64,000 nucleotides of DNA from positions 14,454,336 through 14,518,335 of the forward strand of contig OU744454.1 of the NCBI GenBank assembly GCA_916610825.1, given 5' to 3'. A model generated the notes under the pieces. The model had not been told where the DNA came from. It saw only the letters and a program-made list of their open reading frames with translations, and made no database searches. This DNA is from Haliclystus octoradiatus (taxonomy: Eukaryota; Cnidaria; Staurozoa; Stauromedusae; Haliclystidae). Below are positions 9,694 to 62,817 of this stretch, in pieces. Each line of letters begins with the position of its first letter. The stretch's first letter is position 1. The translations under genes were made by a program, and so were the position numbers.

Positions 9694-12217
9694 TTATTTC
9701 TTTCCATTACGGCGACGAACCCAGATACGACGTCGACGGAGACTCCAACGGCGACGGCGTCTACCAAACCAAGGGTTTGGATCTGATTGATCTGAAACAG
9801 AAAACACTAATTAAATATTTGTGTATAAAATATATGCATACGCTTACAACTTATCCAATAGCTGTCAACTGAAATAATCAATTGTAATAATTTTATTAAG
9901 GCCACGAAGTATTCTCTATATTGAATGATTGTAAAAATTATTGTATGCATGTATTACTAATTGAAGGTGCATTAAAAGAAAGGCTATGATTTCTCATCAG
10001 TTATCGCTGAACCTGAAGTTTGAGGAAAGTATGATGCATAATGTTTCATTTTTTTTGTTTGGATTTATCATTTTCCACAAACCGGGTAAGCTTGCAGCTT
10101 TTTTTCACCGGGGTGGTTGGTTAAATTGGTTAGTAATTTGAAGCTTGTGTGCGTTTATAGCCGGATGCCCTTCCTGACGCCAACCTATAGTGCTCCGGCC
10201 AGGGATTGAACCTGAGACCCTGCGGGCCGTGGTCCAATGCTCTAACCACTACAGCAAGGCCGCAGTATGAGGCTCTTGTATAGTAAACTATTTTGTTCAA
10301 ACAAACCGTGACTTCTTTCATCTGGCATCTCATCTGAAATCAACAAGAAATTCAAAATAAAATGAGTATAGACTAAACTGATAAACAAATCTAATATACT
10401 GTGCTTGAATTTAAATAATTCCCCTATCAGTTTTGAAGGTGACTCCTCAAACTTCACAGCAGGTTTACCAATTAGTAAAAAACAAACATTAAATTAATGA
10501 ATCATTGTAAGCTATCAGATCGGTGCATGAATATTAATAATCTATTGATGATTATACTAATTGCCAGTATATAAAGTAGTAAATCTGAACTTAAGTATAG
10601 TAAAATTAAAATTGTGGTAGCAGTTATAAGATATTGCTAGATCAGTGTCTTCTGCCTGTCATAGATAATATAGAGAAGAAGATAATCATGCCGTTTAGAA
10701 GAAAGTCTTCGCACGTAGGACATCTGGACGTCTTCTATATAGACGCTATACATAGATGTGCCATTATTTTGGGGTATCATTTTGAAAGGATGAATGATAT
10801 ATTTGTCAATTGGAATTTGACAGGCAAATAAAGGAAAACTTACATACAGCCTAAATAAATTTTATTTATTGAGCTAAAGATACGCTATTAAACTAAATTT
10901 ACAAACAGCAAGTGAGGTTGCGCTAGCCACTTCCTTGGAATTTTGGCACCATTCTGGCAATGTGGGGTATCAATTTTCAATTTTGTAAATCTGCCTCGGA
11001 AACCAGAAACATTCCCGCTGCGAGACACCGAAATTGCATTTTTCATGCAAAATGCCAGGAAACGATATATATTTGCAATTTTGGGGTGCGGTATTTAGCA
11101 AAACCTGCATTTTGGGGGTATTAGTGGGATTTTCAAAATGTCATACCCCCGTACAAAAAGGTATTGAAGTATCCCTCTCCCCGGGGCGCAGAAAATAGGC
11201 ACTGAGATTTTGCTTAGTTAGCTGTTGCAATGCAAGCTTAATTTATTTAATTAAAGATTTGTATTAAGTTTCTAGGAAAAACTTTTCACATTCACACATC
11301 GGCCATGTTGGTGTGGCATAACAAGTACATGTTCAATTGTTCGTAGCTATCAAGCGTTTTTATTGCAAGTGAAAAAAAATAAATTTTACACAAAAACTCC
11401 TATTTAACAAGAAACTGTTGACTTAGAACGAGTGGAACAGAACCCGAAACAAAAAAATGCATTACCGATGAGTAAGATAAATTTGATTACCTAAATTGTC
11501 AGGGTCATCGTCAGCATCTTCGACATCCTCTTCATGTTCTCTATCATCTCGGCGATATGCTGAAATATAAATTATTTATCATGATTTAGGTGAGCATTGC
11601 TATAATCATAATAATGTTTGAATTTCTATTGAAAAGTTGAAACATGAGTAAGTTTGGATGCACACATGTTTATATATAAATGTGCTCTATGTTAGATACA
11701 ACCGAACGTAATAAGTAATAAGGAACAAAGATGAGGCAGAAGTCTTTCCCTTACGCTGAGTATGATTTGTATGTTGGCGATTTTCAGATGGTGAATGTTG
11801 TAGTACCATCATCTGAAGATCGTAATTAAAAGAGTGGAGTGAAGCTGCTAAGTAACTGTACGGTATTGTAATTTATTTCCTTTGAATGCTTCTCCGCCCG
11901 CTTCAGTTCCAATAATACAAAATTATGTTTTTGGCAAAGGGCACACATTTACCATAAAATAGGGCATTACAACGACACGATTTGATAAATAAAATGGAAA
12001 TCCTAGTTCAGAAACAAAGTCAACATTTAGAGGGATGACTTCGGAAATGGAACTCCGTTTTGAAATTAGAAAATCGGATTCCAGCTTGCACATTTATCAA
12101 TTTGGCCTACTGAAACAAGTCGATATTTGAGAAATTTCTGATATATAATAATAATGACTCACCAGCGATTGTTAACGCAACTCCGAAGAGAACCAGCATC
12201 AGTAAAGTCAGCTTCAT
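9694..12217 (-). CDS. RP1: secreted acidic-pro / Arg-Trp-rich peptide precursor (82 aa)
   Basis: The four coding exons are 12217-12163, 11559-11491, 10333-10307 and 9791-9694; all introns are phase 1. Exon 1 begins with ATG directly after TTTTCAG and encodes the signal peptide MKLTLLMLVLFGVALTIA, with donor GTGAGT. Exon 2 encodes the acidic pro part (AYRRDDREHEEDVEDADDDP). Exon 3 is a 27-nt microexon (DEMPDERSH) with donor GTTTGT. Exon 4 encodes DQSDPNPWFGRRRRR, WSLRRRRIWVRRRNGKK and then TAA: 12 Arg and 3 Trp in 32 residues, ending Gly-Lys-Lys, an amidation signal. The likely product is a secreted cationic peptide released from its acidic pro part, probably membrane-active or antimicrobial. 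The design, not proven homology, recalls the Hydra arminins. A SINE sits in intron 3. RP1 faces RP2 head to head across 8 kb. Confidence 0.82.
10105..10266 (-). mobile_element. tRNA-derived SINE in RP1 intron 3
   Basis: On the minus strand the element starts with GCGGCCTTGCTGTAGTGGTTAGAG, cut here as an A-box region (10240-10253). A B box GGTTCAATCCC follows (10203-10213), and then the tail block GTCAGGAAGGGCATCCGG (near 10163-10180), a motif I recognise from several metazoan SINE 3' ends. It lies only ~40 bp beyond the microexon donor. The frame at 10130-10333 that reads through both is an artefact. Confidence 0.7.
10900..11200. repeat. Repeat fragment in RP1 intron 2
   Basis: A GC-richer island with GGGGTATCAATTTTCAATTT and TCATACCCCC tracts sits in an otherwise AT-rich intron. 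The style recalls the GGGGTAAC / ACCCCCC repeat in intron 1 of RP4-RP6, though I cannot align them with confidence. No coding signal is visible. Confidence 0.3.
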
Positions 12218-12400
12218 CTGAAAATTGAAAAGTAAATTAAAAAATGATGAATACCTTGCATCCAGTTTCCATTATATGAATTAACTTATATCATATATGA
12301 TTAATTGGGCATGGCATATCAATCAGGAAATATCACTGTCCGATTTGAATATCAAATTCAAGTATATAATTAGCGCGAGATATTATGTAAAACATCTTAC

Positions 12401-12500
12401 CTTGAAATTTTCTGTCTTCTCAGTTCAACGAAACAACCACCTTACGGTCTTACCGCAGACTGATAATATATGTGGTATGTTTCTCTTTTTATATGCAGGA
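12401..12500 (-). promoter_or_regulatory. RP1 core promoter and non-coding first exon
   Basis: On the minus strand a TGCATATAAAAAGAG TATA box (12483-12496) is preceded by the conserved block ATGATCTCTCATCCTG. About 30 bp downstream begins a short leader that ends AAATTTCAAG at 12401 with donor GTAAGATG. The same block recurs before every RP gene. The transcription start is inferred from TATA spacing. Confidence 0.7.
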
Positions 12501-12539
12501 TGAGAGATCATCTAGTCAGATCATTGAAATGATTGTGCC

Positions 12540-13215: not shown

Positions 13216-13249
13216 AAGGTATAATACAAATAGAGGGTTTACAACGTGG

Positions 13250-20917: not shown

Positions 20918-21013
20918 TATTATCTCTCATTCTGCAAATAAAAAGAGAAGCGCAATACGTAGATTATTAGTCTGTTTTTGGTTTCTTGAACTGAAAGGAC
21001 AGAAAATATCAAG
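20918..21013 (+). promoter_or_regulatory. RP2 core promoter and non-coding first exon
   Basis: The conserved block TATTATCTCTCATTCTGC is followed by a TATA-like CAAATAAAAAGAG (about 20935-20947). A leader follows that ends ATATCAAG at 21013, with donor GTAAGATG. The MITE directly upstream has replaced the usual repeat units. Confidence 0.65.
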
Positions 21014-21215
21014 GTAAGATGTTTACATAATGCCTCATGCTAAATATATACTTGAATTTGATATTCTTATTTGACAACGATACTTCTGATTGATATACCA
21101 ATTAATCAAGAAAGCTACATATTATCTTCTATTATAATGTTAGTTAATTTATATTCTTGAAAACTCAATGCAATGTTATTTATATAATTTTCTTGATTTA
21201 CTTTTCAATTTTCAG

Positions 21216-24200
21216 ATGAAGCTGACTTTATTGATGCTGGTTCTCTTCGGAGTTGCTTTAACAATCGCTGGTAGGTCATTATTATTGTATATCAGGAAAT
21301 TCTCAAAATATAGACTTCTTTCAGTAGGCCAAATCAATAAATATGCAAGCTGGAATCGTTTTTCTCTTTTCAAAACGTTTCTCATTTACCTTGCAAAGAT
21401 TTATATTTTAATCCGGTGTCATATTTGTTCATACCCAAATTTTATAGTAAAATGTTGCCCTTTGCCAGAAACTTCATGCGAAATTATGTAATATTGGAAT
21501 TGAAGCTATTGGAAAGGCATTAAAAAGAAATACGTAACAGTAGTTTATAAATTTAAACATTATATATAAAATAGCAAAAAAAAGGATGAGGCAAAAGTCT
21601 TTACAGTTACTTTGCAGTTTTAATTCTTTTAATTGCCATCTTCATCTGAAAATCGCAAGCATACAGATCATACTCAGAGTAACGGGAAAGCCTTCTGCCT
21701 CATCTTTGTTTCCTATGTTATGTTACTTGTCATGCTTGGTTGTATCTAACATTGAGCACATTTATATATTGATGTGTGTATACACGTTACACTCATTCTT
21801 TTTAACGGAAATAGAAACATTATCAGGATCATAGCACTACGTACCTAAATAGTGAAAACTAATTTCTATTTCAGCATATCGAGATGATAGAGAACATGAA
21901 GAGGATTTTGAAGATGCTGACGATGGCCCTGACAATTTAGGTAATTAAATTTAACTTTAGTCATTGTCATCGATTTCTTCCTGTTCCACTTCTTTTGATC
22001 CAACATTATTGTCGATCTGTGTTATTGATTGTTTGTGTCAATTTGTTTTCACTCAATTTTTTTCACTTGCAATAAACGCAATTGATAGCCGCGAACAACT
22101 AAACACATACAATAGATATTTCCATAGGATCCCAACAGTCCCTCGAAAATTATTTAAACAGAATATTTATAACCTGATGGATGTATTTTGAAAAGACAGT
22201 GACCCGTGGATGCCATACCGTCATAGCCAATGTATATAGCTTTGCTTAGAAAATTTATACAAATCTTGAATCAACTAAATCAATCTTGCATTGACAACAA
22301 ATAATTAAGCAAAATATCATTGCATTATTTTCTATCAACTCTGACAGGCAGATGACACTGATCTAACAATACTTTCTAGCTGCTACCACAATTTTAACGT
22401 TACTATATATACCTGAGTTTATTAATATCAAGGTACTTGTGTTGTCTTTGCTGTTTCAATAGTGCTCGATGCCATAAATGCAGAGCTGTTTAATAATTAA
22501 TAAACGAAAAAATCACCAAATGTAATCATTGTCGTATAGCTATAGCTGACTTTGCTATAGCGACATTGAGTCCCAGCGAACACAACGACGGTCAAACTGG
22601 AACTAATTTATTATTCAAACTACACATAGATAGATTACAGGAATTACATAGGGTGATGACGTCAATTACACATAGAATTACAACTTCACATATACAAGAC
22701 AGAACAGCTTGATTATTACAAATTACATTACACAACATCCCCCTTCCAACTTTAAGGAGTGGCAATCATACTGTTACAAATTTTAACAAAACAATTTCTA
22801 GCAACTTACGATAATACATTGTTAAACAAAACCTTTAATGTTTCTTGACAAATCCCTGCATGTTTCAGCAGTTTATAAAGTCCATTGCATGTTTCAGCAG
22901 TTTCCTTGCATGTTTCAGCATTCCTTGCATGTTTCAGCAGTCCTTGCATGTTTCAGCAGTCCTTGCATGTTTCAGCATTCCTCGCATGTTTCAGCATTTT
23001 CAATAGTGTCGTTGTTTCTTTTAGCAGAGATGGTTTAACTTGCCTGCTTAGTTGACTTCTGTGTTTCTTTAGGTAGATTTAATCTCCTTAATACTTCGTC
23101 TCGTTGTGTTTCTTCTTGGCCGATTTGTCTCTGCAGAGGTGATTTTAACATGCACATCCCTTTGATATCTTCTCGTGTTTCGTTTCTTTTGAGCAGACGT
23201 GATATTTAACTTGCTTTATACAGTATACTTCAGCTGTTTAGTTGAAGCCCACCCGGGGACGCCAAATTGTCGTATAGCTATAGCTGACTTTGCTATAGCG
23301 ACATTGAGTCCCAGCGAACACAACGACGGTCAAACTGGAACTAATTTATTATTCAAACTACACATAGATAGATTACAGGAATTACATAGGGTGATGACGT
23401 CAATTACACATAGAATTACAACTTCACATATACAAGACAGAACAGCTTGATTATTACAAATTACATTACACAACAATCATCAAATATAAACAATAGAAAA
23501 CTTAACATTAAAATTAGCTGCTTATATATATACCATAGAATGTATCACATATTTTTTACAGATTAAATTGCCTGATGATCGCCTTGGCGTGAAACTAATG
23601 GTAGCAAATATACCTGAGTTTATTTACTATATATACTGGCATTCAGCATATTACATTCAACAATAGATTGTTGATATTTATGTGCTGATCTGATAGTTTA
23701 ATATAATACCATGATAAATATATTGGAGAGTTATATGAAATCAAGAACATTTTAGCAGATAGGTTTATTAGTCTAATTTTAAATCTTGGCTAGATTTAAT
23801 TTTGATTTCCTGTTAATTCCAGATGAGATGCGAGATGAAGGAAATCGAGGTTTGTTTGAGCAAAATAGTTTACTACAAGAAGCTCTAAAACATAATGCAC
23901 TGTATATTTTCCTCAAACAATGTAATTGAGAAGAGGCTCTTAATATCCAATAGTAATTATTGTCTTGAAGACCTAGAAGGACTTCTCACTTCAGGCTCGG
24001 CGAGTTATTGACGATAATTGATGTTGATGATGACGAGTTACGGCATCAAAATAGTTTGATAAATTTCGTGGCACTACCAACTCCAAAGCCATGAAAGGCT
24101 ATGAAAGCTCGAAAAACTCTTGTCAGTTCAGCATCGTCAGATTGCATTTCATTGTAATGCATGCAAAAACACAGAATTTCACAGCTTTTTTTTAATGCTT

Positions 24201-24830
24201 ACTCAAGTAAAACAGGCGTCCGATAATGATAGGTATGGAAATATCAATTGAAGACCATCACACGTGTGCAATAATATTTTATATAATCAGGTGACATGGC
24301 GATTGCTCGTATAAGTAAGAGGAGTTGCTTTTTCGTATCATTTAATACACAGAATTCGTGGCCTTAATTTGGTCTAGTTATTAATATTTTTCATTTCAGT
24401 CAACATCGATTGAATGGCGATAAGAGTCTTCAGATTAATAGATTTCACAATAAATCCTAAAGCTAATGAATGTACTTTGACAACGTTTCGACTTTCACGA
24501 AAAGCCATTATCATGCCTAAAAAAATTATGGGTGCAGATTAATTATTTATACTAAAATGATTGAGTTATACAGAGTTATAACTCTATCATATTAGTATAA
24601 ATAGTTAATCTGCACCCATAATTTTTTAGGCTTGATAATGGCTTTTCGTGAAAGTGGAAACGTCTCAAAATACATTCATTAGCGTTAGCATTTATTGTAA
24701 AATCTATTGAATGAGCTGCAAATATGTATCAATTTCAAATATTTAATTAGTATATTCTGTTTCAGATCAATCAGATCCCAAACCTTGGGGCAGACGACGT
24801 CGCGGTTGGAGACGTAGATGGTTGGACTAA
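21216..24830 (+). CDS. RP2: secreted acidic-pro / Arg-Trp-rich peptide precursor (70 aa)
   Basis: The coding exons are 21216-21270, 21875-21940, 23823-23849 and 24766-24830. Exon 1 encodes the invariant MKLTLLMLVLFGVALTIA; donor GTAGGT. Exon 2 encodes AYRDDREHEEDFEDADDGP then DNL. The microexon encodes DEMRDEGNR. Exon 4 encodes DQSDPKPWGRRRR, then GWRRRWLD and TAA. This is the shortest last exon of the seven genes and it lacks the GKK end found in most copies, so the product would not be amidated. Intron 2 holds a complete TRIM (22530-23475) and intron 3 a hairpin (24437-24710). If the microexon donor is not used, the frame reads on with GLFEQNSLLQEALKHN and stops 26 codons later. The role is inferred as a secreted cationic peptide, likely antimicrobial. 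Confidence 0.8.
22530..23475 (-). mobile_element. Recent TRIM retrotransposon in RP2 intron 2
   Basis: Two direct repeats of 208 bp (22530-22737 and 23268-23475) read as identical to each other, so insertion was very recent. On the minus strand the LTR starts TGTTGTGTAATG and ends CTATACGACA. It is followed by TTTGGCGTCCCCGGGTGGG, a primer-binding-site sequence. A 5-bp duplication ATCAT flanks it (22525-22529, 23476-23480). The 530-bp middle has no gag or pol but contains a minisatellite. It inserted into sequence related to the hairpin MITE family seen at 30060-30260. Confidence 0.88.
22853..22998 (+). repeat. Minisatellite inside the TRIM
   Basis: About seven imperfect tandem copies of an ~18-bp unit (CCTTGCATGTTTCAGCAGT and variants). 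The units abut without unique spacers, so this is not a CRISPR array. Confidence 0.85.
24437..24710. mobile_element. Long hairpin MITE in RP2 intron 3
   Basis: Arms 24437-24572 and 24578-24710 are near-perfect inverted copies; both include ACTTTCACGAAAAGCCATTA and TAATCTGCACCCATAATTTT or their complements. The loop is only a few bases. A transcript through the intron would fold into a ~130-bp duplex. Confidence 0.8.
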
Positions 24831-25854: not shown

Positions 25855-28800
25855 TTATTTCTTCATAACACGGCGACGATGAGGCCAAATTCGCCGACGA
25901 CGGAGACTCCAACGGAGATGACTCCACATGTCTGGATCTGATTGATCTGAAACAGAATATACTAATTAAATATTTGGGTATAAAATTTATACATAGCTTC
26001 TGCTTGTTCAATAGATGAACTGCAATAATCAATTTTATTAATTATACGAAGGCTATCACGAATTCTGTATTTTGAATGATAGCAAAAACGCAACTCCTCT
26101 TAATACTTAAACCAACAATCGCCATGTCACTGAGATTTTATAAAATATTGCAGGCATACACGTGTAAATATGTCTTCAATTGATATTTCCATATCTTTCA
26201 TTATTGTACGCCTGTATTACTTGAATATGAATTAAAACGAAACTCTGTGAAATTCTGTGTTTTGGCTGTATATATAATGTTATCTGGTGAGGCTCATATG
26301 ACACGCGTTTTTCGCCATTGCCATACACAATACTGATTTCAAAACCATGTAAATAGAGTGAAAATTCTTGGCGCTTTTACATTTTAATATGAATATAATG
26401 GTTAAGACATGAAGGGAATTGTTTAAATTGTTTCCAAACTTTTTCATGTCCTACAAAAGTAGTATTTATTTGATATATTTTCATGGCGTTTTACGACGCT
26501 TTGGTTTCACGGTTTTGGTCTTGGTGGTGCCAACAGACTTATTAAACTCTTTTAATGCCGTAGCTCGTCAGTTTTTGTCGAATCTGAAGTGAGAAATCCT
26601 TCTAGGTCCTCAATTTGATAATTATTATGGATATTAAGAACTTTTTAGCAGTTACATTGTTTGAGGAAAATATAGTGCATTATGTTCAGGCTTCTTGTAT
26701 AGTAAACTATTTTGTTCAAACAAACCTCGACTTCTTTCATCTCGCATCTCGTCTGCAATCATCAAGAAATAGAAATTAAATCTAGCCAAGAATTAAAACT
26801 AGACTTACATAAACCTATCTATTAAAATGTTCTTGAATTTAACTAATTCCACTGTCAGTTTTGAAAATGACCAAGATTTCTGCAAGCAAACTAATTCCTT
26901 AAACTTCAGAGTAGGTTTGTCAACTGGTAAAACCAAAACCTTAAATTAATGAATCATTGTAAGCTATCAGATCAGTGCATAAATATTAATAATCTATTGT
27001 TGATTGTAATATAATAATTGCCAGTATATAAAGTAAATAAACTCTCAAGTATAGTAACGTCAAAATTGTGGAAACAACTATAAAATATTGCTAGATCAGT
27101 GTCTTCTGCCTGTCAGAGTTGATAGAAGCGAAGGTAATCATACTGATTAGAGGAAATCCGTCGTGCGCAATAAATATACAATGATATTTTGCTTAATTAG
27201 TTATTATAGTAGTTATTAGTTATCATCCCCGGGTCTTTTCAAACTAAATCACTCGGGTTAACAATGTTCTCTTTAAGGCCCTGTTTACAAGGAGGGCGAG
27301 TTACTCGGGTAGGCGAGTTACTCGCCTTACCGAGTTAAAATGTGTTGTGTGTTTACAAGGGTCACCTGAGTAACCAGCCTACCCGAGTTAAATAATTTGA
27401 AGCCAATCTAAGCATGCGCGCTGAAATGGAACGATTAGAGAACAAAAGATGTCTACAGCGGAAACGTTCGAAACAATAGAAAATTATAGCTACCATCTTT
27501 TAATTTTAACCCGCCTACCCGAGTTACTCGCCTATATCCGTTTACAAGTCAATAAGTGACAGAAAGTTGTCTCGGGTAGGCGAGTTACCCGGTCTGCCAA
27601 GGCGAGTAACTCGGGTAGGCGAGTTACTCGGGTGGGCGAGACAATTTTCTCACTTTGCTTGTAAACAGAACGCGCATAAACAATAGACCCGGGTAACTCG
27701 CCAACCCGAGTAACTCGCCTACCCGAGTAACTCGCCCTCCTTGTAAACAGGGCCTAAGTAACTCTCGAGTGACTCATTGGCATCCTATGAAAAAAGTCTA
27801 TTGTATGGTTAACTAGTCCAGCTAGAAATCGTTTTTCATTCAAATCAAAACAACTCCTGCAAACCACTTTAAAATTTGACACAAACAGTTCTATTCAACA
27901 AGAAAATCTTGTCTCCAAAGAAGAGGAAAAGACAAACATAAATGATGACTAAGATAAAATTGATTACCTAAGTTGTCAGGGACATCTTCAATATCTTCAA
28001 ACTCCTCTTCATGTTCTCTATGATCTCGATATGCTGAAATGGAAAATATCTTTAAATTCCAGGTGAGCATTGATAATGGTTTAAATAAAGGATTACTGCA
28101 CGGCAGCCGTGTTTGGGTTCTCTGATACCAACACGCAGGATGTTGTGAGACACGAGAAAGCATCAGAAAAACAAGAGCCCGTAGGGCGAGTGATCTTCAG
28201 CTTTCGAGTGTCCTCCCAACATCGCAAGTGTTGGTATCAGATAACCCAACGGTGGGTCTAAACAGCGGAAGCGCGGAGGAGCGCAGAAGTCATTGTTTAA
28301 AACCTGATTAAACTTCGCGGTTTTCACGTCTGTAATATCTTCGCGCGCGGTTAATTATTGTCATGCACTGCGATATATTCACACTAAAATTACAGTCAAA
28401 AGAAAAGCATCGCGCAAAAATAATTATAGGACGTTCTATAACTTAAGTCTAAGCTATGTACTTTAATAATTAACTGCCAAATGATTTTTTACAAATGCCA
28501 AACAAAATGACGCGAAAGGAAGAATGCTTTTAATAATGACATTATTATTTTCAAATTTTTATTTACAATTATTTAAAATTTTTGGGTGTTTTGTTTTTAT
28601 CTATGATGATATCCACGTTGTTTTGGCTTGCGTGATCCAAACACGGGAGTTAGCCAATCAAATTACTAGAACAGCATTCGATTGAATAGTCGAAAAATGA
28701 ATGGAACGCGGTTGCACATAATGTAATACATTTTATGTATATTTTTAAATCTGCTCAATGATAGATAAATGATAGATCGTATTATGTAATAGGAAACAAA

Positions 28801-29400
28801 GATTAGGAAGAAGGCTTTCCCGTTACTCTGAATATGTTCTGTATACTTCTGATTTTCAGATGGTGAATTTCTTGGTATCACCAGCTTCAAATTAACTGTA
28901 AAAATGTTTGCCCTATCTTTGTTTCCTATTCTATATATAATTTTGAAATTTATAATTTATTTTTATTTATTTATTTATTTGGAATGCTTTTCCACTCCCT
29001 TCAGTCCTAATTAATACAAAATTTAACATGAAGCTCCTAGCAGAGGGCACCAATTTACTATAAAAATCGGTCATGTAATAGAATAACTGGATCAAAAAGA
29101 AAAAATAATCTAAACGACTGAAGGACATCAATTGAAAATTCAGATAAAACAACATTGGGTAAATAAAATGGAAATTCTCGATCAGGAAGAAAATCAACAT
29201 TTACAAATATTTTATGACCTTTGAAATGGAACTCCGTTTTGAAAAGAGAAAAACCTATTCATTGAACAGTTATTGATTAGGCCTACTATAGCTGGAAGAA
29301 GTCGAAATTATGAGAAATTCGTTATCCACAATTATATTTACTTACCAGCGATTGTTAAAGCAACTCCGAAGAGAACCAGCATTAGTAACGTCAACTTCAT
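25855..29400 (-). CDS. RP3: secreted acidic-pro / Arg-rich peptide precursor (79 aa)
   Basis: The coding exons are 29400-29346, 28032-27967, 26752-26726 and 25946-25855. The signal exon gives MKLTLLMLVLFGVALTIA. The pro exon gives AYRDHREHEEEFEDIEDVP then DNL. The microexon (GACGAGATG...) gives DEMRDERSR. The last exon gives DQSDPDMWSHLRWS, then LRRRRIWPHRRRVMKK and TAA: 8 Arg, 2 His and 3 Trp. KPW is changed to DMW, and the end is VMKK without Gly, so amidation is not expected. Its WSLRRRRIW core is shared with RP1, pointing to a common origin. A 478-bp MITE lies in intron 2 and hairpins lie in the region of intron 1 and the leader. Confidence 0.8.
27277..27754. mobile_element. MITE with GAGTTACTCGGGTAGGC-type ends, RP3 intron 2
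   Basis: A 478-bp element with inverted ends GGCCCTGTTTACAAGGAGGG and the complement, flanked by a TAA duplication (27274-27276, 27755-27757). Ends and interior are built from repeats of CTCGGGTAGGCGAGTTACTC. It is non-coding. The TAA target fits a PIF/Harbinger-type MITE. Confidence 0.85.
28080..28800. other. RP3 intron 1, part of unknown repeat
   Basis: Contains a GC-richer block (28095-28330) with two nearly inverted words (GTTGGTATCAG...AACCCAA and TTGGGTTCTCTGATACCAAC), probably another transposon fragment. From about 28795 the intron-1 MITE of the RP family follows (GGAAACAAAGATTAGG ... CTTTGTTTCC). Confidence 0.45.
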
Positions 29401-29486
29401 CTGAAAATTGAAAAGTAAGTTAAAAAATTATATATATATATATATAATAATACTAATAATAAAGATAGATTTATCTATCGTCAGAT

Positions 29487-29637
29487 GTGATAGTGCTCAA
29501 TACCGATTAAACATTGGCAGAGCTGTAATACATAAGGATGGTGACTGAGTCAAAGAAAACACATTCTTGATTTCTGTTACTATAGTTTCACGCAGTGTGC
29601 GATCACCAGACAGTTGATACTCAATCTGATAATAAAA

Positions 29638-29676
<39 letters not shown>

Positions 29677-29893
29677 ATAAAAGAAGTCAAAGACTAGACA
29701 TTCATAATTGTTACTAATAGTTTCATGCTTACGCAATCATTAGACAAATAAACTAAAATCTTTTGGTCTAAAAGATTTTAGTTTATTTGTCTGATGATTG
29801 CGTAAGCATGAAACTATTAGTAACAATTATGAATGTCTAGTCTTTGACTTCTTTTATTATATTTAGCTCTGTCAAATGATATCGAGCACTATT
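29487..29893. mobile_element. MITE with near-perfect 91-bp hairpin
   Basis: Arms 29674-29764 and 29770-29860 differ at about one position and are separated by 5 bp. Outer ends resemble each other in inverted form (ATAGTGCTC(A/G)(A)TA). A (TA)n tract occupies 29640-29672. It lies between the RP3 leader exon and signal exon, so it would be in the RP3 5' intron. Confidence 0.75.
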
Positions 29894-30059
29894 TTTTGCT
29901 ATTAGATAATATCTAATGTATATAATATATATATAATAAAACCGTCTGAAGAGCGTCTTTACGCGAAACTAAGAGTAACGGAATAAACTCGTGATCTATG
30001 ATCTACTATTTATATACATAATGTGGTGTAAGTTGTCTTGCTGATGGAACATAGGGCTC

Positions 30060-30262
30060 AATGCTATACAGCAAAGCTTTAAATATTATATAAAATATGA
30101 AGTCAAAAATCAGATAAATCATTTTTGCTATTTAAAGTTTCACGCCAAGGCGATCTAGAATTGAATAAATTGCCTGATGATCGCTGATCGCCTTGGCGTG
30201 AAACTTTAAATAGCAAAAATGATTGTCTGATTTTTGATTTCATATCTTATATATTATATATG
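30060..30262. mobile_element. Second hairpin MITE in the RP3 5' intron
   Basis: Arms about 30099-30160 and 30186-30250 are inverted copies containing TTTCACGCCAAGGCGATC and GATCGCCTTGGCGTGAAA. The same core (GATCGCCTTGGCGTGAAACT) occurs at 23578-23597 beside the RP2 TRIM. Confidence 0.7.
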
Positions 30263-30434
30263 TCTACCACTGCGTTGAATTTTCCAGTATATGGATTAAC
30301 CAACATTTTATAGCAGTAATAAGAATCTTCCACCTTGATTAATTGGACATATTTTATCAATGAGAAATATCATTGTCTGATAAGAATCTCAAAGTCAAGT
30401 ATATATTTTACGTCAGATATGTAAAACATCTTAC

Positions 30435-30530
30435 CTTGAAATCTTCTGTCAGTGTCAGCTCAACGAAGCAGACTGTAATCTACGTGTTCAGCTTCTCGTT
30501 TTACACTGAAGAATGAGAGATTATATATAT
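30435..30530 (-). promoter_or_regulatory. RP3 core promoter (weak TATA) and leader exon
   Basis: The conserved CTCTCATTCTTCAG block is present, but the TATA segment reads TGTAAAACGAG instead of TATAAAAAGAG. The leader ends AAGATTTCAAG at 30435 with donor GTAAGATG. The weaker TATA may lower expression. Confidence 0.55.
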
Positions 30531-31790: not shown

Positions 31791-31879
31791 TTATTTCTTT
31801 CCATAAGGGGTACCATTCCACTGACGGTGACCGGATGACTGATGGAGTCTTCTACCCCAAGGTTTTGGATCTGACTGAT
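31791..31879 (-). pseudogene. Orphan RP last exon (His/Gln/Ser-rich, GKK end)
   Basis: After a CTGTTTCAG acceptor the frame reads DQSDPKPWGRRLHQSSG, then HRQWNGTPYGKK and TAA. It keeps the KPW start and amidation-type end but has lost most arginines. Intron 3- and intron 2-type sequence follows up to about 33210, but no microexon, pro exon or signal exon is visible before the 3' flank of RP4 begins. It is either a 5'-truncated copy or an alternative last exon of RP4, whose upstream exons are in the right phase and strand. Confidence 0.7.
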
Positions 31880-38299: not shown

Positions 38300-38391
38300 T
38301 CTCTCACTCTGCAGTATTAAAAGAGAAGCAAAACTCGTAGATTATCAGTGTGTGTTTGGGTCGTTGAACTGAGAAGACAGGCAATTTCAAG
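38300..38391 (+). promoter_or_regulatory. RP5 core promoter and leader exon
   Basis: CTATTATCTCTCACTCTGCA is followed by TATTAAAAGAG (38315-38325). The leader ends GCAATTTCAAG at 38391 with donor GTAAGATG. Confidence 0.65.
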
Positions 38392-38576
38392 GTAAGATGA
38401 TTTTCATATCTGCTCGAATTTGATATTCTTATTTGACAACGATATTTCTGATTGATATACCAATTAATCAAGAAAGCTACATATTATCTTCTATTATAAT
38501 GTTAGTTAATTATTTACTTGAAAACTCAATGCTGTGGTATTTATATAATTTTCTTGATTTACTTTTCAATTTTCAG

Positions 38577-41500: not shown

Positions 41501-43030
41501 GTTTTTAACGTTTGCATAACAGCATTTAATTATATATTTGTGTATATACCCTACCTTTTCAATAGAAATTTAAACGTTATCATGATTACAGCAATGCTCA
41601 CCTAATGAAACATATTTTATATTTCAGCATATCGCCGAGATAGAGAACATGAAGATGATTTTGAAGATGTTGAAGATGGCCCTGACAGCTTAGGTAAACA
41701 AATATATCTAAAGCCATTGTTTATGTGATACTATATCCAGAGACATTTTTGTCTCTTCCACTCCTTTTGAGCCAACATTATTGTCTCGTTTAATACGATA
41801 TTTTATTTGTGTCAAATTTTGAAATGGCTTACAGGTGGGCTTTGACTTGCAAGAAGAATTCTTAATAGCTAAACAAGTCAACATGTATAATAGAGCTTTT
41901 TCACTGGATCCCATTGATTCCCTGGAGAATTGTTTAAAGGAAATATACATAACCCGAATGTTTTGCATTTTGAAAAGATCGTAAAGCCAGGATAAATTGT
42001 TATGCCTAAAACAGTTAAACATGGACGATGTGAAAAAGTTTGGTTAGAAATTTATTTGAATGAACTATAACTTTATCTTGCGTTGACAATAATTAATTAA
42101 TACACTGATTGCTGCAATATATTATAGCTGCTACCATGATGTTGACGTTACCTTACTTGAAATTATTCCTTAGTATAATATAGCCATCAATAAATTGCGC
42201 TGATCTGAAGGCTTATACCAAGGGTCTATATTTTATTTCAATGTTTTTGACTGTTTGGCAAAACTGCGCTGAATTTTATGGAATTCTTTTGCACGCAGAT
42301 TTCTTGGGCACCGTGATTACTGATAGGGGGTTATATGAATGCAAGAACATTTTATTAGATAGCTTTATCATCTTAGTTTTACTTCTTAGCTAATTTATTT
42401 TGAATTTCCTGTTGATTGCAGATGAGATGAGAGATGAAAGCGGTCGAGGTTTGTTTGAACAAAATAGTTTTATAAAAAAAGCTTGTATATGATGCATTAT
42501 AATTTTCTCAAACAATGTAACTGAAAAAGGGCTCTAAATATCCGTAATAAGTATTAAGTTGAGAACCTAAAATTTCTCACTTCAGGCTCAGCGATATCTG
42601 ACGAGCCTCGGCATTAAACGAATTGCTAAGTCTCTTTGCACTATCACCACAAAATTCATGAAACGCTATGAAGATGTCGTAGAACGCCATCGGAATGTAA
42701 AAAAGAAAAAACTAGAAATCGTTTTTTAAGGTCATTAAAAAGTTTGAAGACAATAAAAACTATAATTTTCACCTATTGACAATTATATTCACATTAAGAT
42801 GTGAAAATGACATGAAACGCCATGAATTTTCACTCTTTTTACATTTTATGCGTCCGTGTGTGCAAGCCTTCGTTCAGTATGTATATATTGTATACACAAT
42901 TATTTTATTAGTATATTCTGTTTCAGATCGATCAGATCCAAAACCTTGGTTTGGTAGACGCCGCCGTAGCAGTGGTCGTCGTCGTCGGTGGTTCGGCAGC
43001 AGCCCTCACTCTGGCATTGGGAAGAAATAA
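38577..43030 (+). CDS. RP5: secreted acidic-pro / Arg-rich peptide precursor (83 aa)
   Basis: The coding exons are 38577-38631, 41628-41693, 42422-42448 and 42927-43030. The signal is MRLTLLMLVLFGVALTIA. The pro part is AYRRDREHEDDFEDVEDGP then DSL. The microexon gives DEMRDESGR. The last exon gives DRSDPKPWFGRRRR, SSGRRRRWFG and SSPHSGIGKK then TAA. Intron 1 is about 3 kb because a chromovirus derivative inserted in antisense. RP5 and RP6 are direct tandem copies: their last exons share DRSDPKPW and PH-x-GIGKK. The microexon donor GTTTGT is retained. Confidence 0.82.
39349..41521 (-). mobile_element. Internally deleted Ty3/gypsy chromovirus in RP5 intron 1
   Basis: Two near-identical 277-bp LTRs (39349-39625 and 41245-41521) start TGTTATGCAAACG on the minus strand. 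A GCATT duplication flanks the element; the uninterrupted site GAGCGCATTTAATTAT is visible in the RP6 intron near 47320. The right (5') LTR is followed by a primer-site sequence TTGGGGGCTCGGCCGGGA. A purine tract (AACGGGAGGAAA) precedes the left (3') LTR. Gag, protease, reverse transcriptase and RNase H are missing: the primer site is joined almost directly to integrase. Recent and non-autonomous. Confidence 0.88.
39752..41242 (-). CDS. Chromovirus integrase with C-terminal chromodomain
   Basis: The 496-codon frame contains an N-terminal zinc-binding region (ELHDMPLSGHLG ... YVTSCTTYQRNK) in which the last of the HHCC ligands is Tyr instead of Cys. The catalytic core has the three acidic residues in FDRISLDYIGPL, LEILTDRGKAF and NGWCERRNSDI. 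A chromodomain follows near the end (VKRILDCKKR, YLVKWKGYSEADATWEP). It would normally be the end of a Pol polyprotein; here it begins in the primer-binding site and has no proper start before MNQYHNYA. The changed zinc ligand and missing partners make activity unlikely. Confidence 0.85.
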   Translation of the reverse strand: MGARPGIEYLSNTIEHTNDDNITKQNDMNQYHNYAIISGLLNRIPGGKFEGRFQLCVPNQLRIPILKELHDMPLSGHLGIKRTWARLVGKYYWKGSYQDVVDYVTSCTTYQRNKVSRKPKGGEIHPLISLKPFDRISLDYIGPLTPSAEGHRHLLVFVDHFTRLTIIEPTKSTDALTVASFLVDKVFLVHGTPLEILTDRGKAFRNKLMFSISSRMKIDQRFTSPYNPQCNGWCERRNSDIMAMLRHYVNENYNDWHIFAQHVAYAYNTTPHAETKVAPFYALYGREPNTPLDAWKESSSKPSEEEKVESSIHRFAELALSAQSVVRRYNKKLAKEMTNRSKNQKKHRSLKFAIGDFVRKRNNNFEVGISRKLQPMFDGPFEVTEARDNDSYLIERVSKVYKYAPQSAHVRNLEPWNKRDDNLKDILCNTKPEETLPDGYFPVKRILDCKKRGKGYSYLVKWKGYSEADATWEPGSYLKSPPLQLLLKDFHNANTV

Positions 43031-44471
43031 GCATCCGGTGACATTGCTTCCATGTCAGCTCTTGTTGCTTGTTTTGTATTACCGTTATACATATTGCATG
43101 TAAACAACATTTGTTGCTTCAATTCTTCATTTTGCTATCATCAAATTAAATGTAGATCAATCGATGTAATGCTATTTTTATTCATAATTTACAACACCTC
43201 ATGGGTGGTGTGGGGTGACTATGGGCAATCAACGCAACTCTTCTTGCCTAAAAGTGTGACACATTTATTCTTAGATATTATAGATCCGAACACACGATCA
43301 TATTTCTTAATCAAGGGAGATTCGTTTCAGTCCGAAGGGCAAGGGCCATCATTATCGTCTTTCATCATCATCATCTTTATTTATATTTACTAGTTTTCTA
43401 CTGTTCAGTACAAATTATATGAAACACTTAATGAAACACTTACCATTAGAGCAAATTAGAGCAAGATATGTTTCACAGAATAGCATGGATGGATATGGTC
43501 CAAATCAAGTGAAATTTATCTGAACAAATTTTCCGTTATTCTTTCTGATGTCAATTGGGGTCTAAAAAAAATTCCATGCAAAGCTTCATTCTAATAAGAC
43601 AACGTTTCGGGGTGGTGCATCCCTGTTTAAATATACATCGTTCCGTTTTGTTTTCTTTACCTTCTCCACAGTCTAGCAGCGTTAAATCAAACAGTTTGCC
43701 TCTCTAAAAGCAATTAATTTCGTACACGTCAAAAGGTTTGTGTGATTAAATTTGACTCAAACAGGAAGTATCAAGTACATGAAAAAAGTCATATATCTTT
43801 GCAGTAGGAAAAAGTCGTTCATCTATAATTAAAATATGGATTACAAATATAGTTATTAATAGTTACTTTGCATTCGCAAGTTATTAAGTTGAATAATTTA
43901 AATCATTTATCCATAATCTAAGCCGCACTGTTTAGTTAAGGACATGAGGACTTTCTCAGTTCAGGCTCGGCGATAACTGACAAGCTACGAGATGAATTGC
44001 TAATGCTATGAAATCGTCGTAAAATACCATCGAAATGTAAACAAGTTAAACAACGAAATTTAAGGCCATGAAAAAGTTTGAAAACAGTACAAACAATTGT
44101 ATTCATGTATTAACAATCATATTCATAATAAAATGTCATAATGCCATGAAATAGTGTGCAACATAATTTTATCAAATCTGTTGACATGGGAATTGTTGGA
44201 AGGAGAAGTTGTGTTGTTGTGCCTCATTTCTATTCTTATTGTTAACTTAGCCTCTTAATTAAATATGAATAGGATGTTTTATTTTAAGATTAGAATGTGG
44301 AGTATGCAGTGTGAAGAACATGCGAGACTATATGATTGTAAACATCTTAATTAAAGTTATTATGAAACATTTCTATTCTCTTTGTCATTATCTATGATCT
44401 ATCATACAAACCATTTGGATTGAGACTTGAAGCTCAATACACAAATATTTAATTAGTATTTTCTCTTTCAG
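43031..44471. other. RP5 3' flank, P-element empty site and truncated RP intron
   Basis: 43031-43560 is RP-type 3' flank. At 43661-43667 lies CTTCTCC, the uninterrupted counterpart of the P-type element's target at 49693 / 55224. From about 43930 the sequence matches RP intron 3 (TTCAGGCTCGGCGATAACTG), leading to the orphan exon. No microexon, pro or signal exon is present here. Confidence 0.65.
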
Positions 44472-44542
44472 ATCAATCAGATCCAAACGGTTGGGATAGA
44501 GATCGCCCACGGTGGGGACTGGGCCGTCGCCGCACATTATAG
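44472..44542 (+). pseudogene. Orphan RP last exon with early stop
   Basis: After a CTCTTTCAG acceptor the frame reads DQSDPNGWDRDRPRWG, then LGRRRTL and TAG at 44540-44542. The nucleotides after the stop (CATATAAAAAGAAATAA) still show the ancestral lysine-stop end out of frame. KPW is changed to NGW. It has no upstream exons of its own but could serve as an alternative last exon of RP5 (same strand and phase). Its 3' flank up to ~45500 matches, inverted, the flank of RP7. Confidence 0.65.
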
Positions 44543-46224: not shown

Positions 46225-46323
46225 TCTATTATCTCTCATTCTGCAGTATTAAAATAGAAGCAAAACTCGTAGATTATAAGTGTGTGTTTGGGTCGTTGAA
46301 CAGAGAAGACAGGAAATTTCAAG
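46225..46323 (+). promoter_or_regulatory. RP6 core promoter and leader exon
   Basis: CTATTATCTCTCATTCTGCA is followed by GTATTAAAATAGAAG as TATA element (46243-46256). The leader ends GGAAATTTCAAG at 46323. The donor is GTACGATG, one base off the GTAAGATG of the other copies. Confidence 0.6.
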
Positions 46324-46509
46324 GTACGATGATTTTCATATCTGCTCGAATTTGATACTCCTATTTGACAACGATATTTCTGATTGATATACCAATTAAT
46401 CAAGAAAGCTACATATCATCTTCTATTATAATGTTAGTTAATTTATTTACTTGAAAACTCAATGCAATGGTCTTTATATAATTTTCTTGATTTACTTTTC
46501 AATTTTCAG

Positions 46510-48926
46510 ATGAAGCTGACTTTACTAATGCTGGTTCTCTTCGGAGTTGCTTTAACAATCGCTGGTAAGTCATTATTATTGTATATCAGGAATATTTCAA
46601 AATATCGACTTCTCTCAGTAATCAATAAATGTTCAACGGCTCGGATTTTCTCCTTCCAAAACGACTCGTCCTTGGCTTACATCAGGGGGTAACTTTAAAT
46701 GGTTGGTATAAGGGGACATACTAATTATTGAGGGTAGCCTTTCACTGTCTTCGAAAATTTTTGAGGTATCTATTTCAGAATTTCCAAAATATTCGAGGCA
46801 TTGTTTTTCAATGAGAAAAAAATGTTGATGTAAATCCACGAAATTGTAATCAATTTTCAAATATGCTTCGATAATAAAATATTTGGGTTATCCATTTTGG
46901 CTTCAATAAAATACATGAGGTATCAATTTTGGAAAAACAAAATTTTGAAGGGCAAAATTCTGAATTCAAATTGGCACCCCCCTGTCCCTGAAATTTCTTA
47001 TGTTACTCCCCTCCAGGGGCTTACATTGCAAATATATTTTTTTGATCCTGTTTCAATTTTTCTAAAAGTCCAATCTTATAGTAAATGCGTGTCATCTGCT
47101 TGGAAATTCATGTAGTTTTCGTATTATTGGAACTGAAACGAGTGGAAAGGCATTACAAACAAAAAAGCAACAATAATTTATAAATTCAACATTACTAATT
47201 TACTATTCATTTCACAAAGAATACAATAAAGTAGACATATAATACTCATAGTAATGGAAACGCCTTATGCCTCATCTTTTTTTCCTTTTACATATGATGC
47301 TCAGTTGTATCTAACATTGAGCGCATTTAATTATACATTTGTGTATACACACTACCTTTTCAATAGAAATTTAAACGTTATCATGATTACAGCAATGCTC
47401 ACCTAATGAAAAATATTTTATAATTCAGCATATCGCCGAGATGATAGAGAACAAGAAGATGATTTTGAAGATGTTGAAGATGGCCCTGACAACTTAGGTA
47501 AACAAATATATCTAAAGCCATTGTTAATGTGATACTATATCCAGAGACATTTTTGTCTCTTCCACTCCTTTTGAGCCAACATTATTTTCTCGTTTAATAC
47601 GATATTTTATTTGTATCAAATTTTGAAATGGCTTACAGGTGGGTTTTGACTTGCAAGAAAACTCTTAATAGCTAAACAAGTCAACATGTATAATAGAGCT
47701 TTTCCACTGGATCCCATTGATTCCCTGGAGAATTGTTTAAAGGAAATATACATAACCCGAATGCTTTGCATTTTGAAAAGATCGTGAACCCAGGATAAAT
47801 TGTTATGCCGAAAACAGTTAAACATGGACGATGTGAAAAATTTTGGTTAGAAATTTATTTGAATGAACTATAACTTTATCTTGCGTTGACAATAATTAAT
47901 TAAGACACTGATTGCTGCAATATATTATAGCTGCTACCATGATGTTGACGTTACCTTACTTGAAATTATTCCTTAGTATAATATAGCCATCAATAAATTG
48001 CGCTGATCTGAAGGCTTATACCAAGGGTCTATATTTTATTTCAATATTTTTGACTATTTGGCAAAACTGCGCTGAATTTTATGGAATTCTTTCGCACGCA
48101 GATTTCTTGGGCACCGTGATTACTGATAGGGGGTTATATGAATGCAAGAACATTTTACTATTAGATAGCTTTATCATCTTAGTTTTACTTCTTAGCTAAT
48201 TTATTTGAATTTCCTGTTTATTGAAGGTGAGATTTTTTTAATTTCATTTATTTTGTCAAAATTGACAGGCAAAACAAAGGAGAGTCACATAATATGATCT
48301 CTCACTAAAATGTAGCCTAGTTATGAGAGATGAGAGATGAAAGAGGTCGAGGTTTGTTTGAACAAAATAGTTTTATACAAAAACCTTGTAAATGATGCAT
48401 TATAATTTTCTCAAACAATGTAACTGAAAAAGGGCTCTAAATATCCGTAATAAGTATCAAGTTGAGAACCTAAAATTTCTCACTTCAGGCTCAGCGATAT
48501 CTGACGAGCTTCGGCATTAAACGAATTGCTAAGTCTCTTTGCACTCTTACCACAAAATTCATGAAACGCTATGAAGATGTCGTAGAACGCCTTCGAAATG
48601 TAAAAAGAACAAACTAGATATCATTTTTTAAGGTCATTAAAAAGTTTGAAGACAATAAAAACTATAATTTTCACCTATTGACAATTATATTCACATTAAG
48701 ATGTGAAAATGACATGAAACGCCATGAATTTTCACTCTTTTTACATTTTATGCGTCCGTGTGTCTAAGCTGTCGTTCAGTATGTATATATTGTATACACA
48801 ATTATTTTATTAGTATATTCTGTTTCAGATCGATCAGATCCAAAACCTTGGTCTGGTAGACGCCGTCGCAGTAGTCGTCGCCGTCGGTGGTTCCGCAGCC
48901 CTCACCCTGGCATTGGGAAGAAATAA
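46510..48926 (+). CDS. RP6: secreted acidic-pro / Arg-rich peptide precursor, microexon lost (73 aa)
   Basis: The coding exons are 46510-46564, 47429-47497 and 48829-48926. The signal is MKLTLLMLVLFGVALTIA. The pro part is AYRRDDREQEDDFEDVEDGP then DNL. The last exon gives DRSDPKPWSGRRRRSS, RRRRWFRSPHP and GIGKK then TAA. In place of the microexon acceptor there is an insertion of ~90 bp (48226-48322) directly before a microexon-like sequence (to 48350). I find no acceptor there that gives the right phase without a stop. Because the flanking introns are both phase 1, skipping the microexon keeps the frame. The 3' flank is interrupted by the P-type element at 49700. Confidence 0.8.
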
Positions 48927-55535: not shown

Positions 55536-55546
55536 GCAGATTTTTA

Positions 55547-60140: not shown

Positions 60141-60802
60141 CGAAAAAAAAACCTATTTAACATCAGTGATTGTCTCACTTTACTATTTAAATTCAGCTGG
60201 AAATTATATGATAAACTGTTTGATAAATTTAACACATAATAATACTGAGATATTGATGAAATTATTAATTAAGTTCTCATCCAATTTTTAATGTTCCACA
60301 TATGTCAACCTTTAAAAAAAATCGCATTCAAATACCATTTGAAGTTCTTACCTATTCCTCATTCTTAGCATTTAATTCTTTGGACATGGACATGCTCGTC
60401 AATTTATGAAACATGTCATTCATTAAATTGTGAATATTTTATGTATTTATACTGAAGTATAAGTAATAGAAGGTAATATGTAGCTTCAGATATAAAAGTT
60501 GGCCCTTCGGACTGAAACAAATCTTCCTTTGTAAGGACATATGATCGTATGTTTGGATTGAGAGTATCTAAGAATAAATATGCCACACATCTAGGCAATA
60601 AGGATAGCGTTGATTGCCAATAGTCATCCCGCCCATACGAAAAGTTGGAAGTTATGAATACAAGTATTAGCATCATATCGATTGATTTAATTTGATGATA
60701 GCAAATCAAAATGAATGCAAGAAAAGTTGTTTACATGCAATATTTATAACGGTTATACAAAACAAGCAATAAGACTTGATATGAAGCCATCTAACAGTTT
60801 GT
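60141..60802. other. RP7 3' flank
   Basis: Matches, inverted, the flank after the orphan exon at 44543-45300, including ACACATCTAGGCAATAAGGA. No gene. Confidence 0.6.
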
Positions 60803-62817
60803 TTATTTCTTTCCATATAAAACTGAACGGCGACGACCCCGACCCCATGAGCTCCATCTACGGCGTCTTCTGCCCCAAGGTTTTGGATCAGAGTGATCTG
60901 AAATATAATATACTAATTGAATATTTATGTATAAAATATAGTAATAATAATGAGAAGGTCGAGAAAGTCACATTCTTTGGTTGTAACCCCAAGTTTCATG
61001 TTAATAAACGATCATCAGACAACAAATACTTGTTTGTATCTCTGTATATCTGACTATAATTTGCTCCCATTAGTTAACCTATTATATTGTGCTATACACG
61101 TCTTTCTTGACCTTCTTCTTATTATTACTATTTACGCTCTGCTATTCACTAGCATTGAACACTATCCAATTGCCAATATTAAGATTTAATATTTCTAATA
61201 TTATTTCTATATATATTTATATATGTATAAAATATATACATACTACAGCTTAGCTAATATCATTCAACTAAAATATATGCCATCATGATAATTATTATAT
61301 TAAATTATATTATATAATAATTATACTATAGGCCATCATGAACTACTTGTATTGAATTGTTGAAACACAATTTCTCCTTCCAACAATTGCCATGTCGCCG
61401 AATTTTATAAAATATTGTTGCATACTTCCTTACCAATCGTTATTGTACGCTTGTACTATTTTGAAGATGCCGTGAAATTCTGTGTTATTGCATGTATTAA
61501 AATAGCAATGGTATCTGACGAGGCTGTTCTGCCACACGCATTTCTGGAGCTTACCATGTGACTATAAGGACGCCATAACAATGAAAAAAAAGTGAAAACT
61601 TTTGGCGATTTCATGGCATTATCACATTTTATTATGATAAACCTAATTGTTAATACATCAATGCAACTCTTTCTATTCAAATTTTTTCATCGCCTGAAAT
61701 TTCGTTGTTTAACGTTTTCATTTTGCTATTACATTGTTTGAGGAAAATATAGTGCATTATGTTCTATCTTCTTCTATAATATGTTATTTTGTTCAAACAA
61801 ACCTCGACTTCTTTCATCTCTCATCTCATCTGCAATCAACAGGAAATTCGAAATAAAATTAGCTAAGAATTAAAACTAAACTGATAAACCTACATATTAC
61901 TTTATTTTTTGAGATCATGTAATTTCCCCTATCAGTTTCAAAGCTGCCCATGATATATGAATGGAGGCTATAGCTAATTTATTAAACTTCAGTCCAGGTT
62001 TACCAAATAGTCAAAAATATTGTTCTTGACGGTTGTATTAATAATAAGTGCCAGTAAATAAACTCCAATATAGTAACTTCAACATCGTGGAAACAGCAAT
62101 AAAATACTGCTAGATCAGTGTATTCTGACTATCAGAGTTGATGGAAACGAAGGTATGATCATGTTGATTAGAGTAAATTGGTCGTGCGCAGGAAATATGC
62201 AATAATATATGAAATATATGCAGGCAAAAATGTCTATGTATATAGTATCGCATAAATGATTACCTAAATTGTCAGGACCATCTTCAGCATCTTCAAAATC
62301 CTCATCATGTTCTCTATCATCTCGATATGCTGAAATAGAAAATATATTTCATTATTAAGGTCTGCATTCCCATAATCGTGATAATGTTTTAATTTCTATT
62401 GAAAAGTTGAAAAATGAGTATGTTTGGATGCACACATCTTTATATAAAAATGTGCTCAATGTTAGATACAACCGAGCGTAATAAGTATTATAGGAAACAA
62501 AGATAGGGCAGAAATCTTTCTGAAAAAAATCCTTTGCAAGGTATGCCACTGAAGTTCCTCAATTAATAATTAGGATATAACGAAATTGGATAAATGAAAT
62601 GGAAATTCTAGATCAGGAAGAAAGTAAACATTTACAAATATTTTATGACCATTGGAATAGAACTCCAGTTTGGAAAGAGAAAACTAGACCCCTTGAACAT
62701 ATGTTGATCACTGGAAGCCGGTATTTGAGAATCTCCTGTTATAGGCAATAAAAATGACTTACAAGCGACTGTTAAGGCAACTCCGACGAGAACCAGCATT
62801 AGTAAAGTCAGCTTCAT
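60803..62817 (-). CDS. RP7: secreted acidic-pro / Arg-Trp-rich peptide precursor (80 aa)
   Basis: The coding exons are 62817-62763, 62329-62264, 61829-61803 and 60897-60803. The signal is MKLTLLMLVLVGVALTVA. Exon 1 ends in T rather than G before GTAAGT, so the first pro residue is Ser, not Ala. The pro part is SYRDDREHDEDFEDAEDGP then DNL. The microexon gives DEMRDERSR. The last exon gives DHSDPKPWGRRRRRW, SSWGRGRRR and SVLYGKK then TAA: 9 Arg, 3 Trp and an amidation-type end. Intron 1 is shorter than in RP4-RP6 and lacks their shared insert. Confidence 0.82.

Follow-up and report, generated by a model that had tools for sequence, protein, structure and literature searches.

A stretch of 64,000 nucleotides (nt) from the stalked jellyfish Haliclystus octoradiatus (GenBank assembly GCA_916610825.1, contig OU744454.1, positions 14,454,336 to 14,518,335 of the forward strand), referred to below as the window, carries seven units of what is probably a tandemly expanded family of small secreted precursors of antimicrobial type, in which an acidic pro part would restrain an amidated peptide rich in arginine and tryptophan. 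A cluster of seven such units, each with a signal peptide, an acidic pro part, a microexon and an Arg/Trp-rich last exon, had been reported in the first-pass annotation of this DNA and is indeed present in the window. The family is real and sizeable; it is of antimicrobial type, a known kind of peptide, and has no match in the libraries that were searched.

Gene plan, conservation and precursor design

One five-exon plan is common to all seven units of the window: a 5' non-coding exon is followed by a signal-peptide exon (55 nt), an acidic exon (66 or 69 nt), a microexon of 27 nt and the Arg/Trp-rich last exon, and the coding introns are in phase 1 throughout. In every one of the seven genes the non-coding exon has a GT donor and a TATA-like box ahead of it, the promoter region can be aligned, and the block ATCTCTCA directly before the box is identical in all seven aligned copies. 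The cluster had been given as 9694 to 62817, positions at which gene A has its stop codon and gene D its ATG; it continues beyond the window, since it comprises 14 units within 92 kb (window coordinates 9694 to 101641), seven of them past the window end. The stretch read around the window extended 80 kb before it, where the directly preceding 2500 bases read N, and 180 kb after it, and the rest of this stretch gave no further exon match at E < 0.05. GT/AG splice sites and in-phase exon lengths were found in the 14 units, the microexon acceptor of gene G being the sole exception, and ATTAAA lies 109-121 nt past the stop codon in ten of the 14, at 206 nt in unit E and at 14 nt in unit K, with none within 300 nt of the stop in J or L.

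The coding exons, apart from the last, are better conserved than their surroundings. Mean pairwise identity among the seven copies, counted over aligned columns only, is 93% in exon 2, 86% in exon 3, 86% in exon 4 and 72% in exon 5, as compared with 61-74% in the six intron flanks, 77% in the 150 bases before exon 2 and 70% in the 3' flanks; exon 5 by itself is thus no more conserved than the introns. Its strong basic charge is confined to the spliced frame (+5 to +15, versus -4 to +3 in either alternative frame, in 13 of 13 units, K being dropped), and arginine is preserved through codon changes: the 118 Arg codons of the 13 basic parts are CGT (52), CGC (34), AGA (18), CGA (9), CGG (4) and AGG (1), and each of the six columns in which 12 or more of the 13 units have Arg uses two to five codon types. 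The ratio of nonsynonymous to synonymous substitution (dN/dS) in the basic part was 0.33 for the seven genes (with a dS value missing for two of the 21 pairs) and 0.27 for eight representatives, one per duplicate group, figures to be read with dS near saturation in this part and with an uncertain alignment of the Arg runs. Positive selection on the basic part is not supported by these ratios, and synonymous divergence is high.

The family is not restricted to this cluster. Whole-genome searches with the DNA of gene D (33 contigs, 262 Mb) score the best candidates only, so that all copy counts are lower bounds. A second cluster on the same contig (6.622-6.710 Mb; 6622000-6710000) has seven promoter/signal-exon places and six last-exon places, i.e., six or seven units known from matches, in part arranged as inverted pairs with equal scores. 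Another contig, C8, holds at least four related last exons; one of them, PESDPKPWFYRRRRRVTRRRRRLWWRRRHFGKK, keeps SDPKPW and GKK around a diverged middle and is matched across its full 34 residues by the three others at 85-88%. Weaker matches on contigs C1, C4, C10 and C8 (at 18.5 Mb) were left out of the counts. Signal-peptide-exon matches were also seen in isolation outside the clusters, at 10532727-10532833 of the same contig (E 8.6e-18) and, weakly, at 24683769-24683825 of C4 (E 0.32).

The precursors are 68-88 residues long in 13 units (K left out) and, in the window, have no Cys in any of the seven. A signal peptide of 18 residues, judged by eye, is followed by a pro part of 33-37 residues with a net charge of -8 to -14 in the 14 units (-9 to -14 in the window) and by a basic part of 16-33 residues in 13 units (21-33 in 11 of the 14). 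The net charge of the latter is +6 to +15 in 13 of the 14 units, +7 to +15 in the window and +2 in K, which is frameshifted into a non-basic tail. The opposition of an anionic pro part and a cationic end, pointed out earlier for the window, is therefore confirmed, and the antimicrobial-type precursor design proposed from it appears to hold and to extend to the 14 clustered units and to more loci. The basic part starts with KPW in 12 of the 14 units, the exceptions being A (NPW) and B (DMW), and ends with GKK in ten, all but B, E, I and K. In J and L the splice AG stands directly before ATCC, so that the last exon opens at DPKPW; unit I is shortened, and K has a run of G that is not of the same length as that of I.

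The charge pattern, the amidation-type ends and the clustering are consistent with secreted host-defence peptides, among the linear forms of which this precursor design is a common one. In a mechanism suggested by this design, an expressed and secreted precursor would carry an acidic pro part that neutralises the basic peptide in transit and storage, cleavage would occur just before KPW, after a conserved Asp-Pro, and the Lys-Lys tail would be removed before amidation at Gly; the product, an amidated linear Arg/Trp-rich peptide, may bind and disrupt microbial membranes. All 14 units have Pro directly ahead of the basic part, and P0001, an unnamed protein of 99 residues that is discussed below, has Ala at this place; either would suit an X-Pro/X-Ala dipeptidyl step of the sort that takes place in cnidarian peptide precursors. 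The same architecture was described for arminins and other antimicrobial peptides of Hydra (PMC4820302, PMC10945409), PMC12013895 mentions DE cleavage motifs, and ascidian precursors are described as being cut at acidic residues (PMC7387483).

Individual units and neighbouring elements

The units of the window, two orphan last exons and the neighbouring elements are collected in Table 1. The earlier count of seven intact-looking genes is right in number but too favourable as to their state. Gene G has lost the microexon acceptor, although omission of the microexon preserves the frame. Gene E has a shortened basic part, KPWGRRRRGWRRRWLD, that ends in WLD instead of GKK, and its 3' flank, with 42-49% identity to the other copies, has seemingly been replaced. 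Gene B, with DMW in place of KPW and MKK in place of GKK, has lost the amidation Gly. Gene A, whose TATA-like box lies near 12490, has the basic part NPWFGRRRRRWSLRRRRIWVRRRNGKK. The orphan last exon downstream of gene C is open to a GKK end (DQSDPKPWGRRLHQSSGHRQWNGTPYGKK) and is either an alternative last exon or a gene remnant, while that downstream of gene F has an early stop (DQSDPNGWDRDRPRWGLGRRRTL).

Table 1. Family members and other elements of the window (positions counted from its first base)
Feature	Position	Strand	Exons or remarks
Gene A	9694..12401	-	exon 1 ends 12401; exon 2 12217-12163; exon 3 11559-11491; microexon 10333-10307; exon 5 9791-9694
Gene E	21013..24830	+	exon 1 ends 21013; exons 21216-21270, 21875-21940, 23823-23849, 24766-24830
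Gene B	25855..30435	-	exon 1 ends 30435; exons 29400-29346, 28033-27968, 26752-26726, 25946-25855
Orphan last exon	31794..31880	-	downstream of gene C
Gene C	33996..36384	-	exon 1 ends 36384; exons 36198-36144, 35270-35202, 34469-34443, 34111-33996; KPW...GKK
Gene F	38391..43030	+	exon 1 ends 38391; exons 38577-38631, 41628-41693, 42422-42448, 42927-43030; KPW...GKK
Orphan last exon	44471..44542	+	downstream of gene F
Gene G	46323..48926	+	exon 1 ends 46323; exons 46510-46564, 47429-47497, (48325-48351 without acceptor AG), 48829-48926; KPW...GKK
Gene D	60803..63016	-	exon 1 ends 63016; exons 62817-62763, 62329-62264, 61829-61803, 60897-60803; KPW...GKK
Direct repeat	5283-5582 and 6152-6451		copies of at least 300 bases with 98% identity, 869 bases apart
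Class A receptor gene	7966-8904	+	single exon; Pfam 7tm_1, E 1.2e-29
Interspersed repeat	10049-10267		intron 4 of gene A
Transposon protein	39752-41242	-	Ty3-type integrase with chromodomain; intron 2 of gene F
Transposon protein	51867-54352	-	TNP-like transposase (P-element-type by eye)
Transposon protein	55887-58605	+	retroelement frame with aspartyl protease, probably BEL/Pao (name by eye)

Transposon proteins are encoded at three places of the window. The interspersed repeat within gene A has the appearance, by eye, of a tRNA-type short interspersed element; among the best 40 of 2355 candidates, 39 are additional copies with an identity of 94-97%. The 3' end of gene A is separated by 0.8 kb from a gene for a class A G protein-coupled receptor (GPCR). 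Elsewhere in the genome, the mitochondrial contig C33 (18,316 bases) has, within the 6.5 kb that were read, an LSU rRNA (Rfam) and frames, open under code 4, that by eye are those of COX1, COX2, ATP6 and a DNA-polymerase-B-like protein; a polymerase of this sort is typical of medusozoan mitochondria.

Relation to Hydra arminins and other known peptides

The first-pass annotation had recognised no described family that matches. Pfam and PDB, searched with the family precursors, gave nothing above noise and precursor A had no match at E <= 10 in a large protein set, which bears this out on the side of the libraries, where one distant protein, P0001, stands against it; the literature side was searched incompletely. 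A conotoxin match (Pfam PF02950) obtained for four of the seven members (best E 0.04; gene A 12.2 bits over residues 1-43, below the cut-off of 25.1) was discarded; no Cys is present in the seven precursors. In the cited literature, as far as it was covered by an incomplete dedicated search, no staurozoan antimicrobial peptide family is named, and three computer-predicted antibacterial peptides are counted for Staurozoa in PMC11820242.

The closest described family is the arminins of Hydra, to which the KPW start and the GKK end had already been compared. Arminins have a conserved acidic N-terminal part and a poorly conserved cationic C-terminal part (PMC4820302, PMC12013895) with a C-terminal Gly for amidation (PMC12013895), and their multiple paralogues are mostly at one locus (PMC10945409). 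They are further characterised by bactericidal activity and endodermal expression. The Haliclystus family likewise has a signal peptide and a conserved acidic part (exons 93 and 86% identical) before a cationic C-terminal part, an amidation Gly in the GKK ends, and clustered paralogues, 14 units in one place and six or seven in a second; the host is, moreover, a medusozoan cnidarian and the length is similar, UniProt D2XUU4 being an arminin of 88 residues (PMC11820242). Both ends coincide with those of the arminin 1a peptide as printed in PMC12011183, KPWRFRRAIRRVRWRKVAPYIPFVVKTVGKK, which starts with KPW and ends with GKK. The earlier statement that the family differs from arminins was thus too strong, and the five-exon structure cannot yet be counted against kinship. 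There are differences, since Arg runs dominate the basic part and an aliphatic second half, such as the printed arminin 1a peptide has, is missing from it. As to reported distribution, which is no structural property, arminins are placed in Hydra only and the present family is staurozoan.

It is likely that the family works like an arminin, and homology is possible on the strength of the comparisons made so far. That the Hydra arminins and the Haliclystus family descend from one medusozoan gene would be a sharper form of the antimicrobial reading rather than its opposite, and is slightly less likely than not. In its favour, the printed arminin 1a peptide, aligned end-to-end with the 14 basic parts, had a mean score of 26.6 against -8.9 (standard deviation 5.5) in shuffles, none of 2000 of which reached it, and P0001, without a close match in the genome, has acidic residues, then NDA and then KPWFGRRRRSSSRRRRWF. 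However, the local alignment of the same peptide was marginal (P = 0.026 for the best score and 0.0055 for the mean, 2000 shuffles), BLASTP against gene D was empty, and a genome search with it gave no match, the Haliclystus family itself included. The end-to-end result depends on the ends in common, and termini such as GKK, like Arg/Trp runs, can arise independently; arminins are, furthermore, reported to be strictly confined to Hydra (PMC10945409). The comparison with arminins proposed earlier therefore came out positive end-to-end, and marginal or empty in the other searches with the printed mature peptide. An unverified 88-residue sequence taken as the arminin 1a precursor, and used as a lead only, aligned from the signal peptide to past KPW and scored 23.7 bits, whereas none of 500 block shuffles exceeded 20.4; when its signal peptide was kept unshuffled, however, the score was reached in 8 of 500 (best 32.0), a control that, like the empty genome search, counts against common descent.

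P0001 (source tag lgn) was the only match of a profile of the seven precursors in the large protein set (E 0.41, among 7982 candidates scored). Its sequence runs ...DDELTDEEYDNEFQTNDAKPWFGRRRRSSSRRRRWFRS... and continues with another cationic stretch and, at the C-terminus, a part with six Cys. Its score against the family profile was 28.5 bits (maximum of 500 shuffles 22.9), and its local score against gene F was 114 (maximum of 1000 block shuffles 73). The acidic stretch and the following NDAKPWFGRRRRSSSRRRRWF are close to genes F and G, whereas the extra cationic stretch and the Cys part set it apart from the family. Since its best match in the H. octoradiatus genome is gene F, at only 76% over 25 residues, it very likely comes from another source, and it is possibly a composite defence peptide of another animal. 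A PDB match of P0001 to a designed repeat protein (E 0.00017) was attributed to composition, and against Pfam it gave a match below the cut-off only.

Taken further, and with somewhat more reserve than common descent itself, it is conceivable that arminin-type peptides are an old medusozoan family, represented here by no fewer than 21 promoter/signal-exon units on a single chromosome and at least four related last exons on another. In its members, KPW would follow an acidic leader that closes with Asp-Pro, or with Asp-Ala in P0001, and would precede a free-running Arg/Trp-rich middle and a GKK end. Maturation would be of dipeptidyl-peptidase type, and in P0001 another animal would have joined such a peptide to a Cys-rich defence-type part.

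Other animals have comparable precursors. The arminin-like AMP1-4 of Trichoplax share, by description, the signal peptide, the acidic N-terminal part and the basic C-terminal part with Gly, and differ in being placozoan and about 150-250 residues long (PMC12013895). Myticalins of Mytilus are, like the present peptides, linear, Cys-free and Arg-rich, with a phase-1 intron, a 5' non-coding exon, clusters, pseudogenes and predicted amidation of some members; unlike them, these mussel genes have three exons and encode a mature peptide in the middle of the precursor and an anionic part at its C-terminus (PMC12294457). That order, signal-cationic-anionic, is not found in Haliclystus, where it is signal-anionic-cationic, with a strongly basic end in 13 of the 14 units. 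The linear cationic peptides of the ascidian Ciona (Ci-MAM and others) also combine a signal peptide, a cationic peptide and an anionic part, with cleavage proposed near acidic residues, but they follow the signal-cationic-anionic order and are alpha-helical and amphipathic (PMC7387483).

Alternative functions and meaning of the family

Several observations weigh against an antimicrobial function. Synonymous sites of the basic part also show raised change, and the signature of an arms race (dN above dS) is therefore absent. The charge of the pro part is uncorrelated with that of the basic part among the copies (r = 0.05, n = 7), and co-variation of the two was rejected. No NF-kB, AP-1, CRE or IRF-type site was found upstream of the seven genes (up to 420 bases; about 166 for B), and immune-type promoter control was rejected on that account; short motifs of STAT type (two of seven), GATA type (six of seven) and ETS type (five of seven) do occur there, with no chance control, and nothing is claimed from them. 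Copies E, I, K, G and B are altered or decaying. Finally, the near-identical pairs I/K, D/H, J/L, M/N and F/G (95.4-99.3% identity over the aligned gene body) could be uncollapsed alleles, by which the copy number may be inflated.

Another candidate function is that of secreted polycationic proteins of structural or packaging use, as in a nematocyst matrix, an adhesive, an egg or a sperm. Packaging proteins combine a very high Arg content with a relaxed sequence, and the degenerate ends of several copies would agree with this; charge alone, however, would call for neither the recurring KPW and GKK ends nor the Trp residues, and an acidic leader with an amidation-type end suits a processed peptide, which makes this function unlikely. 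Slightly less likely still is a cnidarian neuropeptide or other signalling precursor, which would release a single amidated receptor ligand by cleavage of the leader at its acidic residues, in the manner of cnidarian preprohormones. The GKK end and the nearby class A GPCR gene would speak for a ligand; yet the basic parts, which differ greatly among copies in both length and sequence and reach a net charge of +15, are unlike one, the tandem copies are many, and the receptor gene adjoins one cluster end only, which may be chance. A repeat artefact, in which expansion of CGN triplets in a region of transposons and recent duplications mimics Arg-rich exons that encode no protein, is very improbable: most of the Arg codons in the last exons are CGN (99 of 118), but the alignable promoter, the splice sites and phases, the ATTAAA signal, the synonymous substitution pattern and the frame-specific charge all argue against it.

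The reading of the family as precursors of amidated, Arg/Trp-rich antimicrobial peptides is thus retained as the probable one. The family is of interest mainly for its possible connection with arminins beyond Hydra. If a related and larger staurozoan family were confirmed, the origin of arminins would be pushed back in medusozoan evolution. In Hydra, antimicrobial peptides shape the microbiome, and the stalked jellyfish would then provide a second animal in which a role of such peptides in the microbiome can be tested, together with many natural variants of Arg/Trp-rich sequence.

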